DNA of 64,000 nt from Natronomonas salina (lineage in GTDB: Archaea; Halobacteriota; Halobacteria; Halobacteriales; Haloarculaceae). Below the pieces are notes generated by a model. The model was given only the letters and a program-made list of their open reading frames with translations, did not search any database and had not been told where the DNA came from. The position numbers and the translations under genes are program-made. The stretch is taken from assembly GCF_013391105.1 (NCBI RefSeq), contig NZ_CP058335.1:1922001-1986000 (forward strand), in the 5' to 3' direction. Numbering within the stretch: position 1 is the first letter of the stretch; the number at the start of each line of letters is the position of its first letter. This document shows positions 2-29,733 of this stretch, piece after piece.

Positions 2-712
2 CCGGACCGGTTCCGGGAGCTGCTCGCCGCGATGGAACGCGCCGACGTGACCGTCTGCAATCCCCCGTCGGTGCTGCGCTGGAACATGCACAAGTCCTAC
101 GTGGCGGACCTCGCCGCCGAGGGCGTACCGGTCCCGGAGACGGCCGTCGTCGAGCGCGGCGCCGAGACGACGCTCGAAGCAGAACTGGAACGGCTGGGCC
201 TCGACGAGGCGATCGTCAAGCCCGCAGTCGGGACCGGCTCGGAGGGAGTCTTCCGGGTACAGGCCGCCGACGCCGGCGAGTTCGAGGACCGCTTCGCCGA
301 CCTGCTCGCCGACGGCGACGCGCTCGTCCAGGCGTACTGCCCGGACATCTCCGAGGGCGAGCGGTCGATCGCGTTCTTCGGCGGCGAGTACAGCCACGCC
401 TGGAACAGCCCGACGACCCCCGACGACGTCACCCGGTTCGAGGGCGACGACCACGACTACGAGCCCCCGGAGTCCATCGTGGAGGCGGCCGCGACGACCT
501 GCCGCGCCGCCCGCGACGTCCTCGACCGCCGGGACCCGTTCCCGTACGCGCGCGTCGATTACGTCCGGGACGAGGACGGCGGCATCGTCGTCCTCGAACT
601 GGAGTTGATCGAGCCGATCCTCGACCTCGAGGAAGCGGGCGCCGTCGACCGGTTCTGCGAGGCCGTACAGTCGTACTTCGAATCGGCGAATCCTGAACTC
701 GATCAGACGTAG
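2..712 (+). CDS. ATP-grasp domain protein (5' end cut off)
   Basis: The frame is open from base 2, and the codons before the first Met at 32 (DRFRELLAA) read as normal protein, so the true start lies to the left of the window. KPAVGTGSEGVF is the glycine-rich nucleotide-binding segment of ATP-grasp ligases, and YARVDYVRDEDG followed by ELELIEP matches the C-terminal acidic metal-binding strand seen in RimK/glutathione-synthetase-like members. Such enzymes join a carboxylate to an amine or thiol through an acyl-phosphate, using ATP. The substrate cannot be read from the sequence. It converges on engB across a hairpin-rich repeat element. Confidence 0.85.
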   Translation, partial: PDRFRELLAAMERADVTVCNPPSVLRWNMHKSYVADLAAEGVPVPETAVVERGAETTLEAELERLGLDEAIVKPAVGTGSEGVFRVQAADAGEFEDRFADLLADGDALVQAYCPDISEGERSIAFFGGEYSHAWNSPTTPDDVTRFEGDDHDYEPPESIVEAAATTCRAARDVLDRRDPFPYARVDYVRDEDGGIVVLELELIEPILDLEEAGAVDRFCEAVQSYFESANPELDQT

Positions 713-736
713 CTGTGCCGGTCAAATAGCAAGCAT

Positions 737-911
737 CCGCCGAGTGGGCGTTCGAAGAACGCCCCCGAGGCGGTTCTCGGCGACGAGGCCGAAGGCCGAG
801 TCGCCGTAGCGCGTGCGGACTGACGCGCCCGGAGGGCGCGGAAGGAGCACGCGCGCATGTTTTCCCCAAGTTTTTGCCGGGCCGGCGAAGCCGGCCCGTG
901 CAAAAAGTGGA
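737..911 (+). repeat. Hairpin-rich intergenic element, copy 1
   Basis: The whole gap between two convergent genes is palindromic. Visible stems are 746-764 (8-bp arms, GAA loop), 778-806 (7+4 bp, GAA loop, with a symmetrical GA/GA internal loop), an outer stem GCGCGTGC/GCACGCGC enclosing a 7-bp stem with a GGA loop (about 809-858), and a 9-bp stem with a GAA loop next to position 900. T5 and A5 tracts flank the last stem. The reverse complement of 28808-28990 shares the same ordered blocks: GTAGCGCG-GC-GACTG, then GGAGCACGCGCGC, then GTTTTTGCCG, then CGTGCAAAAAGTGG. It could be a structured 3' RNA, a two-way terminator or a non-autonomous mobile element. Confidence 0.75.
902..906 (-). terminator. 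T5 tract after engB
   Basis: Read on the minus strand this is TTTTT inside CCACTTTTTGCAC, six nucleotides past the engB stop codon and just before a strong stem. Archaeal RNA polymerase stops on T-runs, so this is a likely engB terminator. The same CCACTTTTTGCAC string follows the permease stop at 28805. Confidence 0.5.
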
Positions 912-1532
912 TTAGAAGAACTTGAACAGGTCGTCCCGCTGCTGTTCGTGGAGGTGGTGGCGGACGGCCTCGTTCAGCGCGTCGATGTTGCCGCGCTTCG
1001 CGGAGATGGGGGCGATGATGTCGTCGAACTGCTGCCAGGGAGGATAGAGGCCGAGTCGCTCGGCGAGGGCGTCGAGCCGCTCGTCCTCGTCGTCGACCTT
1101 GTCCATCTTGTTGACGGCGACGACGGTGGGGACGTCCAGCTCCTGGAGGAAGCCGAACAGCTCGACGACGTGTGGGATCTCCTCGGGGCCGGAGTGGCGG
1201 TCGATGATGTCGACGGCGGCCTTCCCGTCGACGACGAGGACGGCGACGAGGATCTTGTCGGCGTTGGCCTCGACGTACCGGACGACGTCGGTCTTGATGT
1301 CCTCGCGGACGTCCTCGGGGACGCCGGACATGAAGCCGAAGCCGGGGAGGTCGGTGACGACGAAGTCCTCGGCGGTCCAGTCGAAGTGGTTGGGCTTCCG
1401 GGTGACCCCGGGGCTGCCGCCGGTGGCGAACTTGCTGTGGCCGGTGATCTCCCGCATCAACGTCGACTTGCCGACGTTGGACCGCCCGAGGAGGACGACC
1501 TCCGCGTCGCGGTCGGGACGGGTCTCGAACAT
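912..1532 (-). CDS. engB: EngB-family GTP-binding protein
   Basis: 206 residues of the TRAFAC GTPase family YihA/EngB, which assists assembly of the large ribosomal subunit in bacteria; the archaeal role is less studied. The G motifs are clear: P-loop GRSNVGKST at 16-24, G3 DLPGFG at 61-66, G4 NKMD at 141-144 and G5 SAK at 177-179. The length is normal for the family. The ATG at 1532 was chosen because an AT box (GGCTTATCC on the minus strand, 1555-1563) lies about 26 nt upstream, which fits a leaderless transcript. The gene stands alone and ends against the repeat element. Confidence 0.95.
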
Positions 1533-1923
1533 ACGCTGGATTGGCCGCTACGTCGGATAAGCCGACCGGTCCGGGGCTCCGGGAGCGAACGCGTCGACGG
1601 AGCGGTACGGACGCGAAAAGCGCGGACGACGAAAGTGTGGACCCGACGGGCCCGGACCGTGGAGGGCCGCTCGTGCGCGTCGGCAGGTGCATCCCCCGCG
1701 GACGTAGCGACGGGTCGAGACATTAAATATCTTCTGTGGTTGCTGAATAAACAGAGCGGGAGCCGGAGCCGGGGCCGTCAGCGGGTCGAAGCTGCGGAAG
1801 CGGGAGTCAGTGAGGGACAGTTCGGGGTCGGGGAGAGGCGCGACAGGGAGCCGGCGACGCCGGGCGGTGCCGCGCCCGACGACGAACGCGGGCCTTTATT
1901 CGCCAGGGCGTCGAGGGTCCGCT
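1533..1923. other. Gene-free region with two outward promoters
   Basis: Between the divergent engB and DUF389 genes. The minus-strand engB TATA-like box is at 1555-1563 and the plus-strand box CTTTATT at 1894-1900, 27 nt before the DUF389 start. An AT-rich island at 1722-1755 (TTAAATAT, TAAACA) stands out from very GC-rich surroundings and may be another promoter, but no convincing reading frame follows it on either strand. Confidence 0.5.
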
Positions 1924-3267
1924 GTGCGACTCGTCCAGGTGACCATCCCGGCGGGCAAGCGCGAGACGGTGCTTGACGTCCTCGACGGGGAGGGGATCGA
2001 CTACGTCGTCACCGACGAGACGAGCGGCCGCGAGTACACCGGCGTCGTCTACTTCCCGCTGCCGACCAACGCCGTCGAGCCGATCCTCGAGGAGCTCCGG
2101 GAGGTCGGCCTGGACCGGGAGGCGTACACGGTCGTGATGAAGGCCGAGACCGTCGTCTCCGCGAAGTTCGAGGACCTGACCGAGGAGTACGCCCAGCGGG
2201 AGGACAGCGAGGAGCGCATCGCCAGACAGGAGCTGGAGGCCCGCGCCGAGGAGCTCGCGTCGGCGCTGCCGACCTACGTCGTGATGACGGTCCTCTCGGG
2301 GATCATCGCCACGGCGGGGCTCCTGCTGGACTCGCCGGCGACGGTCGTCGGCTCGATGGTCATCGCGCCGCTGATCGGCCCGGCGATGGCGGCCGCGGTC
2401 GGCAGCGTCGTCGGCGACTCCGACCTGTTCCGCCGGGGGATCATCCTGCAGATGCTCGGCGTCCTGATCGCCATCATGGCGGCGACGGCGTTCTCGATAT
2501 TCGTCCAGTTGACGAACCTCGTGCCACCCGGACTCGACCCGCTGTCGTTCTCGGAGGTCGAGGAGCGGCTCTCGCCGAACTTCCTGTCGCTGGCGGTCGC
2601 CATCGGCGCCGGCGTCGCCGGCGCGCTGAGCCTGATGACCGGCATCTCGGCGGCGCTGGTCGGCGTCATGATCGCCGTCGCGCTCATCCCGCCGGCGGCG
2701 ACCGTGGGGATCGGCATCGCCTACGGCGAGCCGGCGCTGGCGCTGGGGTCGGCGGTCCTCACGGCGGTGAACGTCCTCTCGATCAACCTCGCGGCGCTGG
2801 TGGTGCTGTGGTGGGGCGGCTACCACCCCGAGCACTTCTTCCGGCGGGACCGCGCCCGCATCGCGACGGTCAAGCGCGTCGCCATCCTCGTCGGCGCCAT
2901 CGTCGTGCTGTCGCTGTTCCTCGGCGGCGTCACCTACGACTCCTACCAGTCGGCCTCGACCGAGGAGGACATCCGGGACTCGGTGACCGCCGAACTCGAC
3001 GAGTCGGCCTACGCCGGCTACGAACTCCTCGACCTGAACATCCGGACGACCACCGACTACTTCCTCTTCCAGCGGCCGACCGAGGTCGTCGTCCGGGTCG
3101 GCGTCCCCCCCGACGCCGAGCGGCCACCGCTGGCGAGCCAGCTCGCAACGCGGCTGGAGGCCGAGCACGGTCTCGACGTCCAGATCCAGGTGCAGTACCT
3201 CGAGGTCGAACAGAGCGGTCTGTCGGACGAGGACGGGGGCGGCGACAGCCGGGGTCGCGACGAGTGA
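1924..3267 (+). CDS. DUF389 / TIGR00341 family membrane protein
   Basis: 447 residues from a GTG start at 1924, placed 27 nt after a TATA-like box; an in-frame Met further upstream would add an Arg-rich tail unlike the family. The N-terminal soluble part (about 1-110) begins RLVQVTIPAGKRETVLDVL, typical of DUF389. About six hydrophobic segments follow, with Pro/Gly-rich motifs such as MVIAPLIGPAMA and ALIPPAATVGIG. A charged Asp/Glu-rich C-terminal domain of about 110 residues ends the protein. It should sit in the cytoplasmic membrane. No transport substrate is established for the family. Confidence 0.88.
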   Translation: MRLVQVTIPAGKRETVLDVLDGEGIDYVVTDETSGREYTGVVYFPLPTNAVEPILEELREVGLDREAYTVVMKAETVVSAKFEDLTEEYAQREDSEERIARQELEARAEELASALPTYVVMTVLSGIIATAGLLLDSPATVVGSMVIAPLIGPAMAAAVGSVVGDSDLFRRGIILQMLGVLIAIMAATAFSIFVQLTNLVPPGLDPLSFSEVEERLSPNFLSLAVAIGAGVAGALSLMTGISAALVGVMIAVALIPPAATVGIGIAYGEPALALGSAVLTAVNVLSINLAALVVLWWGGYHPEHFFRRDRARIATVKRVAILVGAIVVLSLFLGGVTYDSYQSASTEEDIRDSVTAELDESAYAGYELLDLNIRTTTDYFLFQRPTEVVVRVGVPPDAERPPLASQLATRLEAEHGLDVQIQVQYLEVEQSGLSDEDGGGDSRGRDE

Positions 3268-27329: not shown

Positions 27330-28805
27330 ATGTCTGCCGACGACTACAAGCTGATCGACGAACAGGTCGGACTCTGGGGCGCCGTCGCGTTGCTCGTCGG
27401 GACCGCCCTCGGGATGAGCATCTTCATCGTCCCGACGCAGATGGCGGCCGCGGCCGGACCGAGCATCACCGTCGCCATCCTGGCGTCCATCGTGCCGATG
27501 ATCCTCGGCGTCCTGCTGTTGCTCCAGCTCGGCGGCGCCATCCCCGTCGCCGGCGGCATCTACGTCTACGGCTCCCGGCTCGTCGGCCCGTTCTGGGGGA
27601 TGATCGGCGTCACCGTCCCCGTCCTCGCCGTCTGGTCGTACCTGCTGTTCGCGGCGCTGGGCTTCTCGGAGTACCTCAACGGCATCCTCGACAGCCTAGG
27701 GATGGGCGCCGTCCCGCCGTTCCTCGCCGTCTGGTTCCTCCTCGGGCTGTTCCTCGTCCTCAACTACGTCGGCGTCCAGATCGTCACGAAGGTCCAGATC
27801 GGGCTCGTGCTCGTGCTCATCGCCGGGATGCTCGCGTTCGTCCTCTCGAGCGTCCCGCACGTCGACCCCGCGAACTACACGCCCGTCTTCCCCTCCGGCG
27901 AGGGCGAGCCCTTCGAGGGCACCTTCCGGCCGTTCATCCTCGCGGTCGTCACGCTGTACATCCCCTTCCAGGGCTTCGGGATGATAATCGAGATCGGCGA
28001 GGAACTCGAGAACCCCGTCGAGAACATCCCCCGCGTGCTCGGCATCGGGATGGCCATCGTGACGGTGCTGTCGATCGCCATCGTCTTCGCGCTCGTCGGC
28101 GCCATCCCGCTGGAGAACCTGACCGTCTCCGGCGAGATCGGCGTCAACGAGGAGCCCGTCGAGGGCGGCCTCGCCGCCGTCGGCGAGGGGATCCTCCCGG
28201 CCCCGATCCTGCTGTTCGTCGGCTTCGCGGCCCTGCTGGCGGCCGCGACCACCGTCAACACGCTCTTCACCTCCTACTCACGGACCGTGATGCGCGCCGC
28301 CCGCGACGAGGTCGTCCCGGACGTCTTCGCGAAGGTCCACGACCGGTACAACACCCCCCACCGAGCGATCCTGCTGTTCGCCGTCCCGCCGATCGTGGCC
28401 GCGCCGCTGGCCCCCTACTTCGACGCCATCACCGGCCCGGACTTCCTCGACTGGCTCGTCGTCGTGGTCGTCTCCGGCATCTTCATCGCCTTCGCCGTCG
28501 GCGGCGTCGCGCTGTGGAACCTCCCGAAGGTGTTCCCGCAGCGCTACGAACACTCCATCTACAAGCTCCCGATGCCGGTCCTCCGGGTCGTCGCCGTCGG
28601 CAACGTCGTCGTCTCCACGCTGTTCACGCTGCTGGTCGTCAGCAGCGCCCCCTCGGCGTTCGGCGTCGTCCTCCTGTGGATGGTCCTCAGCGCCGCGCTC
28701 TACTTCTACCGCATCCGCGCCTACGAGAAGAAGGGGATCGACCTGAAGTCACGGATGGCGCTGCTGCACAAACACGAGCAGGTCGGCGGCGGCAGCGACG
28801 ACTAA
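27330..28805 (+). CDS. APC-superfamily amino acid/polyamine permease
   Basis: 491 residues with 12 predicted helices. The N-terminal signature VALLVGTALGMSIFIVPTQMAAAAGPS is the unwound TM1 substrate site of the APC family; GGIYVYGSRLVGPFWG follows on TM2-3. IIEIGEELENPVENIPRVL is the conserved loop. It takes up amino acids or amines with H+ or Na+; the substrate cannot be named. The gene ends 5 nt before the CCACTTTTTGCAC border of repeat copy 2. Confidence 0.9.
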   Translation: MSADDYKLIDEQVGLWGAVALLVGTALGMSIFIVPTQMAAAAGPSITVAILASIVPMILGVLLLLQLGGAIPVAGGIYVYGSRLVGPFWGMIGVTVPVLAVWSYLLFAALGFSEYLNGILDSLGMGAVPPFLAVWFLLGLFLVLNYVGVQIVTKVQIGLVLVLIAGMLAFVLSSVPHVDPANYTPVFPSGEGEPFEGTFRPFILAVVTLYIPFQGFGMIIEIGEELENPVENIPRVLGIGMAIVTVLSIAIVFALVGAIPLENLTVSGEIGVNEEPVEGGLAAVGEGILPAPILLFVGFAALLAAATTVNTLFTSYSRTVMRAARDEVVPDVFAKVHDRYNTPHRAILLFAVPPIVAAPLAPYFDAITGPDFLDWLVVVVVSGIFIAFAVGGVALWNLPKVFPQRYEHSIYKLPMPVLRVVAVGNVVVSTLFTLLVVSSAPSAFGVVLLWMVLSAALYFYRIRAYEKKGIDLKSRMALLHKHEQVGGGSDD

Positions 28806-28807
28806 CT

Positions 28808-28990
28808 CCCACTTTTTGCACGCTCCGCGGGTTCGCCGCCGACGGCGAACACCGGTCGCGTGGCGGCGAAGCCGCCACGTCGTACGGTTGCGGGCCAGTG
28901 GCCCGCAACCCACGCGGCAAAAACACGGGTGTAAATAGGCGCGCGTGCTCCCTTCGGCACCTTTGGCGCCTCCAGTCTGCGCGCGCTACC
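28808..28990 (-). repeat. Hairpin-rich intergenic element, copy 2
   Basis: Inverted relative to copy 1 at 737-911 and again between convergent genes. It opens with CCACTTTTTGCACG beside the permease stop. Stems: 28831-28850 (8-bp arms), 28859-28879 (9-bp arms, GAA loop), 28886-28910 (11-bp arms, AGT loop) and 28956-28970 (6 bp; paired through G-U only as minus-strand RNA). The outer GCGCGCGC/GCACGCGC stem matches copy 1. Copy 2 has three stems where copy 1 has one, so the element is modular. Confidence 0.75.
28813..28817 (+). terminator. T5 tract after the permease
   Basis: TTTTT within CCACTTTTTGCAC, 8 nt past the permease TAA and before GC-rich stems. It is the same arrangement as after engB (902-906, minus strand), so it probably ends the permease transcript. 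Confidence 0.5.
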
Positions 28991-29178
28991 GAGCGCTCAC
29001 TCCGTTCGCGCTCGGAGAACCGCTCGCTCCCGACGGTCGCTCGCGGATGCTGGACTGCACGAATGCAGCCCGCTGCCGCGGTGGCTCCATGTACTGCTCT
29101 GCCGAGAGTGACCAGCCAGGAGAGACATCCATCCGGTGGCTGGCAAGGCGGGCTTTGTAGCCGGTGGTTGCGGCGTCG
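28991..29178. other. Gene-free tail beyond repeat copy 2
   Basis: Between the repeat core and the msrA stop. It holds more short palindromes: CGAGCG...CGCTCG near 28990-29015, CTGCACGAATGCAG at 29054-29067 and a CCAGCC...GGCTGG pair near 29112-29143. No reading frame looks coding. It may belong to the element or be an msrA 3' untranslated region. Confidence 0.4.
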
Positions 29179-29733
29179 CTAGTCGTCGGACGCTTCGGCG
29201 CCTCGCCGGCCCTCGACCTTCTCCTCGAACTTCTCGCGGACCTTCTCGACCTTGGGCGCGGCGTGCATGCTGCAGTAGGCGTCGTTGGGGTTCTTCTCGA
29301 AGTAGTTCTGGTGGTACTCCTCCGCCTCGTAGAACGCATCGAGTTCCTCGAGTTCGGTGACGACGTCGTCGTCGTACTCCTCGTCGAGGGCCTCGATGTA
29401 CGCGGCAGCCTGTTGGCGCTGGTCGTCGTCCTCGAAGAGGACGATCGAGCGGTACTGAGTGCCGACGTCCGGCCCCTGCCGGTTCAGCTGCGTCGGGTCG
29501 TGGACGGCGAAGAACACCTCCAGCAACTCGTCGTAGCCGATTGCCTTGGGGTCGTAGGCGACCCGGACGACCTCGGCGTGGCCGGTCTCCTCCCGACAGA
29601 CCGCCTCGTAGCTGGGGTCCTCGACGTGGCCGCCGGCGTAGCCGGAGGTCACCGACTCGACGCCGTCGAGTTCCTCGAACGCCGCCTCGACACACCAGAA
29701 GCACCCGCCGCCGAACGTCGCTGTCTCGGTCAT
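29179..29733 (-). CDS. msrA: Peptide methionine-S-sulfoxide reductase
   Basis: 184 residues. The active site GCFWC is at 10-14 (nucleophile Cys11), followed by GYAGG and the family blocks THAEVVRV-like GHAEVVRVAYDP, HDPTQLNRQGPDVGTQYRS and YHQNYFEKNPNDAYC with the resolving Cys near the end. It repairs oxidised methionine with thioredoxin. The ATG at 29733 was chosen because MTETATFGGGCFWC is the standard start and an AT box (GATACATAC, minus strand) lies about 30 nt upstream. Confidence 0.96.
   Translation of the reverse strand: MTETATFGGGCFWCVEAAFEELDGVESVTSGYAGGHVEDPSYEAVCREETGHAEVVRVAYDPKAIGYDELLEVFFAVHDPTQLNRQGPDVGTQYRSIVLFEDDDQRQQAAAYIEALDEEYDDDVVTELEELDAFYEAEEYHQNYFEKNPNDAYCSMHAAPKVEKVREKFEEKVEGRRGAEASDD

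Follow-up and report, generated by a model that had tools for sequence, protein, structure and literature searches.

A four-hairpin element dispersed among haloarchaeal gene ends, a putative asymmetric two-way terminator

Two copies in the window and the anatomy of the unit

The window (the whole stretch of DNA analyzed, 64 kb from Natronomonas salina) contains two copies of a hairpin-rich element, both located between convergent genes. Copy A spans 733..910 on the plus strand, from GCATCC to AAAAAGTGG, with boundaries taken from the breaks of homology between copies of the same genome, and it matches our covariance model from P2 to its end with an E-value of 3.7e-30. The gene it is anchored to, coding for the GTP-binding protein EngB (912..1532, minus strand; NCBIfam NF003255, 294 bits for a cut-off of 164), has its stop codon 1 nt from the element, and the convergent neighbor is an open reading frame which runs off the window start (2..712, plus strand). 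On the plus strand follow one another the hairpin P1 (733..776), GCATCCGC...GCGGTTC with a C(GAA)G tip; P2 (778..806), CGGCGAC...GTCGCCG, with the same tip and a covarying stem (helix 1); P3 (809..856), GCGCGTGCGGACT...AAGGAGCACGCGCGC, whose covarying stem comprises helices 2-5 and is directly followed by a T-tract; and P4 (871..906), helices 6-7, with arms TTTTTGC and GCAAAAA. The twin T-tract TTTTCCCCAAGTTTTT (860..875, plus strand) is the sole T4-N-T5 block in the window, and on the other strand a T5 (902-906) faces EngB.

Copy B (28809..29050, minus strand; E-value of 3.7e-16) is anchored to an amino acid permease gene (27330..28805, plus strand; PF13520), whose stop codon lies 3 nt away, and has as convergent neighbor a gene on the minus strand (29179..29733) whose product is probably MsrA-like, judging from its GCFWC motif, and which ends about 130 nt from P1. 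The same parts are found on the minus strand: P1 (29017..29050), P2 (28989..29015; CCGAGCGC...GCGCTCGG), P3 (28939..28986), the T-tract block TATTTACACCCGTGTTTTT (28919..28937), in which the first tract is only a T3, and an enlarged P4 (28811..28923), where extra nested hairpins separate the TTTTTGC and GCAAAAA arms. A T5 on the plus strand (28813..28817) faces the permease gene, 7 nt past its stop codon. The extra hairpin pair inside this P4, GGTTGCGGGC..GCCCGCAACC and CGTGGCGGC..GCCGCCACG (28830-28912), is also seen within copies of other species (e.g., L273, L275 and L188). An earlier note on this DNA had recognized four blocks in a fixed order at both places, and these are present; it located the sites correctly and drew their extent too short, leaving P1 of copy B and most of P2 outside its range.

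Taken as a family, the unit measures about 175-240 nt and consists of the hairpins P1, P2 and P3, a T4-N7-T5 block, the hairpin P4 and the end CAAAAAGTGG. We describe it with P1 on the left and CAAAAAGTGG on the right, which defines the plus, or outer, strand. In this orientation P1 reads (A)GCATCCGC-hairpin-GCGGTTC; P2 is GGCGAC-hairpin-GTCGCC or a replacement stem, followed by TA; P3 is long and GC-rich, contains the motif GACT...GGAG and has the first T-tract directly behind it; then come TATTTTCCCCA(A/C)GTTTTTGCC, the P4 hairpin and GTGCAAAAAGTGG. On the outer strand the T-tracts read TTTTCCCCA(A/C)GTTTTT; behind the anchored gene the sequence is CCACTTTTT. In most copies a GTAG stands ahead of P3, and the T of its TAG can take part in pairing at the foot of that stem; the Haloarcula-type copies lack this motif.

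The stems covary strongly, whole stems being substituted in such a way that the hairpins persist. P2 is thus built from GGCGAC/GTCGCC, CGGAC/GTCCG or GCTGAC/GTCAGC depending on the copy, all perfectly pairing; the base of P3 from GCGCGCG/CGCGCGC, GCGCCC/GGGCGC or GCGAGCGCC/GGCGCTCGC; and that of P4 from CCAC/GTGG or CGAC/GTCG. For 111 copies aligned to the model, 94.3% of the pair cells hold standard pairs and 286 double changes are counted, whereas shuffles give 63.5 and slid controls no more than 48; this alignment was fitted to the structure and leans towards it, and both controls lie far away. The differences between stems noticed earlier are therefore base-paired replacements, and the covariation rules out random hairpins, in agreement with the earlier opinion that these were not random palindromes. 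Two variants deserve mention. Several copies of the own genome (L082, L083, L085, L263) share, at the base of P3, an inserted module GTTCGGAAATCGCC..GGCGATTTCCGCAGCCCATCAGAAGTGCTTCGCACTTCTGAGGACGCCC, and a divergent subtype, GGGACCGAGGGCCGACC...GTGTCTTTTTCATGAACGTTTTTGCC...GTGCAAAAAGG, found behind EngB (L273, L275) and elsewhere (L132, L157), is poorly covered by the model.

Anchoring to gene ends and sharing between genomes

A covariance model trained on 20 Natronomonas copies detected 42 copies at E<=0.01 in this 3.75 Mb genome (one contig of 3,746,575 bases). A simple pattern, GCGCGYGCRGAC-N(12-42)-GGAGCACGCGCGC, gave 11 matches in the whole genome and 0 for the reversed-pattern control. 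The genome-wide statistics come from such searches and from about 270 fetched loci. One cyanobacterial match of the pattern scan (L164) was discarded as a chance match, since the rest of the element is absent there.

The right-hand gene ends towards the element in 97 of the 111 copies. Its stop codon lies 0-6 nt from AAAAAGTGG in 84 of these 97 and 14-20 nt away in 9 more, which mostly possess a second AAAAGTGGGTG-like end within the spacer. With uniform placement in the gaps of the window, 6% of the copies would be expected within 6 nt, and an ending gene would stand to the right of 40%. On the left side the distances are scattered, from 2 to several hundred nt, and the left neighbor is convergent in 60/111 copies and tandem in 36/111. 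The convergent gap described in the earlier note thus holds for both window copies and not for the family, the tandem gaps ruling out a strictly convergent location. It is the right end which is anchored, not the gap, and it is tied to one neighbor only, through a stop codon or the 3' end of a tRNA. Where each gene of a convergent gap has a copy, the two stand head to head (L193, L213, L224). The fixed address at gene ends, as opposed to gaps, is supported by the other copies of this genome and of related haloarchaea. Four loci (L061, L062, L066, L084) have the end twice, with a second copy (gtgctAAAAAGTGGGtg) lying between the element and the stop codon, which gives the impression of a more recent unit having come in at the end of an older one.

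Next to two copies (L173, L333), ARAGORN calls tRNA genes whose 3' ends lie at distances of 3 and 5 nt, and in two others (L146, L324) tRNA-like 3' arms were seen by eye at the same place. These tRNA-anchored copies rule out a reason for the anchoring that is tied to the stop codon or the ribosome, and therefore any reason based on translation. In 14 copies the right neighbor starts at the element, and 10 of these 14 end 38-46 nt before the start codon, with gene ends and starts given by a home-made codon-usage gene finder for which single start codons are uncertain. This distance corresponds to the expected outer edge of a leaderless haloarchaeal promoter. For five divergent-gap copies (L068, L070, L080, L195, L265), 38-45 nt separate the right end from the start codon, which places this end at what is presumably the outer edge of a promoter. 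The anchored genes are mostly core genes: profile matches identified EngB, the alpha subunit of succinate-CoA ligase (SucD), ProRS, ArgRS, aspartate kinase, a NuoI-like protein, CDP-archaeol synthase, EF-2 and TFB, and thermosome and TFS were added by eye.

Among 20 Natronomonas genomes the number of copies varies from 0 to 89, and near-complete assemblies show both high and low values. One of these genomes (G018), probably that of N. pharaonis, a species rich in IS605-type elements, has no clear copy. Within the family, the model matches 84 of 146 genomes (16 of 22 genera), and within the order, sampled evenly, 24 of 95 genera; outside the genus these counts are lower bounds, since the model was trained on one genus, and the weakest matches are uncertain. 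Matches bear the names Natronomonas, Halorientalis, Halorarius, Haloarcula and Halomicroarcula, and those in other families keep the hairpins, TTTTTCC, GTTTTTG, a hairpin, CAAAAAGTG and the next stop codon.

Copies at different genes of one genome are 84-94% identical, and 30 of 35 copies of the own genome find their best match in that genome. For pairs from the same genome, homology starts within 2 nt of GCATCC in 30/52 and ends 0-3 nt from AAAAAGTGG in 22/52; elsewhere it may break inside P4. The two ends are not inverted repeats, no other inverted terminal repeats were found, and matches resembling target duplications are no more frequent than in shuffles. Sharp ends, the lack of a target duplication and homogenization within genomes therefore establish that a discrete unit was copied around. 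At the same time, the outcome was kept at particular genes. The 147 stop-anchored genes of 29 genomes fall into 81 groups, of which 31 have members from more than one genome; the fetched loci are the best-scoring ones, and these figures are not those of a random sample. The element stands behind the thermosome gene in 11 genomes belonging to several genera, and behind EngB it is found in 7 of 14 congeners with a readable end (one copy being degenerate), the far side of the gap differing in some of them. In related species, copies located at one and the same gene often have a similar P4, but their P1-P3 are those of the local subfamily.

These data bear on a first alternative, namely a non-autonomous mobile element without host function which moves as single-stranded DNA in the manner of PATEs or REPs, prefers the ends of units, and whose hairpins are recognized in trans by an HUH-type or another nuclease. 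The discrete unit with its sharp ends, the lack of target duplication and of inverted terminal repeats, the homogenization and the highly variable copy number within one genus speak for this explanation. It accounts less well for the occupation of the same gene ends across species and genera, or for a part of P4 being common to a gene while P1-P3 differ. A dependence on a Y1 transposase is unsupported: the partial assemblies of five carriers (G007, G009, G011, G013, G015) yielded none, and 30 loci with Y1_Tnp contain no copy of the element and no end motif, only short hairpin-like similarities. Likewise, the viral contigs, phages and plasmids searched hold no copy, which speaks against a viral or plasmid origin. 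We consider this alternative as possible, although somewhat doubtful.

The folded strand

In the plus orientation, which is antisense to the anchored gene, the copies fold better in 85-89% of cases if RNA parameters are used, and in 66-75% if DNA parameters are. The triloops of the predicted folds are C(GNA)G in 244 of 334 cases, and tandem GA/GA occurs 139 times in the stems versus 1 for TC/TC. For comparison, the stems of at least 6 pairs elsewhere in the window and in the flanks gave 3 GNA, 1-2 TNC and 37-41 other loops. The mismatches in triloop-centered stems are G.A in 443 cases, G.T in 16 and A.C in 41. It is known that d(C-GNA-G) triloops are exceptionally stable DNA minihairpins and that sheared tandem G.A pairs are stable in both DNA and RNA, whereas structured RNAs prefer GNRA and UNCG tetraloops and tolerate G-U pairs. 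The C(GNA)G triloops and the tandem G.A pairs point to folding at the DNA level, and these predicted folds favor selection on a folded DNA strand over selection on an RNA. That a single strand is the folded one, with G.T no commoner than A.C, is also in line with the mobile element described above.

A structured RNA, whether a small RNA or a 3' UTR module, which would work in trans or through the stability of mRNA, has in its favor the four hairpins, their strong covariation and the conserved P3 motifs (GACT...GGAG). We regard it as improbable. The better-folding strand is antisense to the anchored gene in most copies, and is therefore not its 3' UTR; the G-U bias expected of an RNA is unsupported by the mismatch counts; and the loops are triloops rather than GNRA or UNCG tetraloops. 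No TATA box is positioned ahead of P1, where we saw no AT peak at a fixed distance and only an A at -1 is conserved, which eliminates an own small-RNA promoter. A known RNA family, which could have explained the copies, was also looked for, and no Rfam family matches the element, even at E<=1. Among the three natures proposed for the repeat at the outset, the 3' UTR RNA fits worst because of the missing promoter, the antisense orientation of the stabler strand and the lack of a G-U excess; a small mobile element fits the spread of the copies; and the two-way terminator fits best, in an asymmetric, archaeal U-tract sense.

Still another explanation, a DNA architectural site which would bind a nucleoid, topoisomerase or cohesin-like protein at unit borders, could make use of the conserved junctions, unpaired or constrained in sequence (GTAGCG, GGTTC), of the hairpins with their unusual tandem G.A pairs, and of the location at core-gene ends. 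It seems very improbable to us, as the present evidence identifies no such protein and the T-tracts are left unexplained.

T-tracts, termination and relation to known systems

Of 105 copies, 94 have a T4+-N6-8-T5 block on their outer strand (with N=7 in 86), and in 150 kb of flanking sequence no such block occurs on either strand. The strand of the anchored gene has one T5, 4-11 nt past the stop codon; the other genes of the window have no T5 right after the stop. Nearly every copy combines this T5 with T4-5 plus T5 on the outer strand, i.e., with stretches in the range of 4-7 T of archaeal U-tract terminators, a retention which argues against an element without host function. In Haloferax volcanii, a T5C stretch gave 95% termination in vivo (PMC7237163), and in Methanococcus maripaludis two U4-tracts were the minimum for efficient binding of aCPSF1 and gave the highest termination (PMC8716108).

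We infer that the unit is a dispersed, structured border element which, placed at the edge of a transcription unit, would stop transcription arriving from either side, a reading to which we give a probability of about 60%. In its favor are the anchoring to the 3' ends of units of any type, the right ends found at presumed promoter edges, the T-tracts behind a GC-rich stem with their experimental backing in other archaea, the covariation, and the predominance of core genes among those anchored. RNA polymerase coming from outside, be it from a gene in convergent or in upstream tandem position or in the course of antisense transcription, would copy P1-P3 and then two U-tracts (U4-5, 7 nt, U5), and would be halted just before the anchored gene by aCPSF1 or by intrinsic termination. 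The RNA of the anchored gene would meet a single U5 (CCACUUUUUGC) 4-11 nt after its stop codon. The hairpins and twin T-tracts outside, with a single T5 on the gene strand, give the unit the look of an asymmetric two-way terminator, apparently stronger against outside traffic than for the anchored gene, which may benefit from it. The whole unit would be copied between gene ends within genomes through a non-autonomous route. Several observations fit this terminator poorly: P1, P2 and the conserved P3 motifs exceed what a terminator needs, which moreover need not sit within 6 nt of a stop codon; the C(GNA)G triloops reflect a preference of DNA and not of RNA; the first T-tract is weakened in copy B; and many genes of the carrier genomes, as well as some whole congeners, do without the element.

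Several known systems resemble the element in part. It shares with archaeal terminators read by aCPSF1 the T4-5 tracts of the outer strand, their twin arrangement and the T5 right behind the anchored gene, but those consist of short local motifs which lack conserved hairpins and are not duplicated as a whole, in contrast to the covarying structure of about 180 nt seen here. The PATEs of Haloquadratum are also haloarchaeal, non-coding and present in many copies, with palindromes near both ends and neither inverted terminal repeats nor target duplication; however, their palindromes resemble those of IS605-type transposons (PMC3119063), and neither a link to gene ends nor terminators are part of their description. 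The element cannot be classed as a PATE because no IS605-type ends were found for it at the Y1_Tnp loci mentioned above. Like bacterial REP/BIME sequences with their RAYT, it is a dispersed extragenic palindrome at gene ends, with head-to-head pairs and, in most copies, a GTAG at the foot of a palindrome (P3) which may recall the GTAG/GGAG head of REPs, but these measure 20-40 nt, compared with four hairpins and about 180 nt here, and do not have its constant orientation and its spacing of 0-6 nt to the anchored gene; the five partial carrier assemblies, in which no cognate Y1 transposase is linked to the element, set it apart from REPs. Not having inverted terminal repeats or target duplication, it cannot be classed as a MITE. 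Finally, bacterial two-way intrinsic terminators (A-run, hairpin, T-run) likewise serve convergent genes from both sides, but in P4 the T-run precedes the hairpin, lying in the 5' arm on both strands (TTTTTGC-hairpin-GCAAAAA), and this reversed order keeps it from being classed with them. On the best reading, its mode of action would be that of an archaeal U-tract terminator and its mode of spread that of a PATE or a REP. In the open-access literature, outside of which most subscription journals fall, we found no description of such a haloarchaeal element, only the Haloquadratum PATE/SMR work.

Terminators of archaea are usually seen as short T-stretches arising in place. A broader and rather speculative idea is that of a domesticated single-strand-DNA element, which would propagate via the folded DNA of one strand, land precisely at unit borders and hand insulating terminators to core genes across an archaeal order. 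A module of about 180 nt that passes from gene to gene, preserves its structure through the exchange of whole stems and lies a few bases from unit ends would imply that termination signals can spread as units and that the borders between transcription units are actively insulated; it would also be a natural case of selection for DNA rather than RNA hairpin loops. The 42 loci in one genome constitute a defined set for studying the control of convergent and antisense transcription in dense archaeal genomes.

Two minor observations concern the surroundings of the copies. In four congeners (L275, L278, L279 and L283), EngB is followed, ahead of the next gene, by a conserved block, GGTGGCTCGG..GAA...CTCATCACAAGGGGCTC.G.GGGGGTAA...CGTCA(C/T)CGCCACC, which L273 and L276 possess as well. 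It looks like a candidate non-coding RNA; for the locus L275 as a whole, Rfam reports only a snoPyro_CD match below threshold (31.5 bits versus 45). Finally, long spurious open reading frames run through both window copies (813-1976, plus strand; 703-1692, minus strand; 28514-29182, plus strand), and similar false hypothetical proteins are likely to be present in annotated haloarchaeal genomes.
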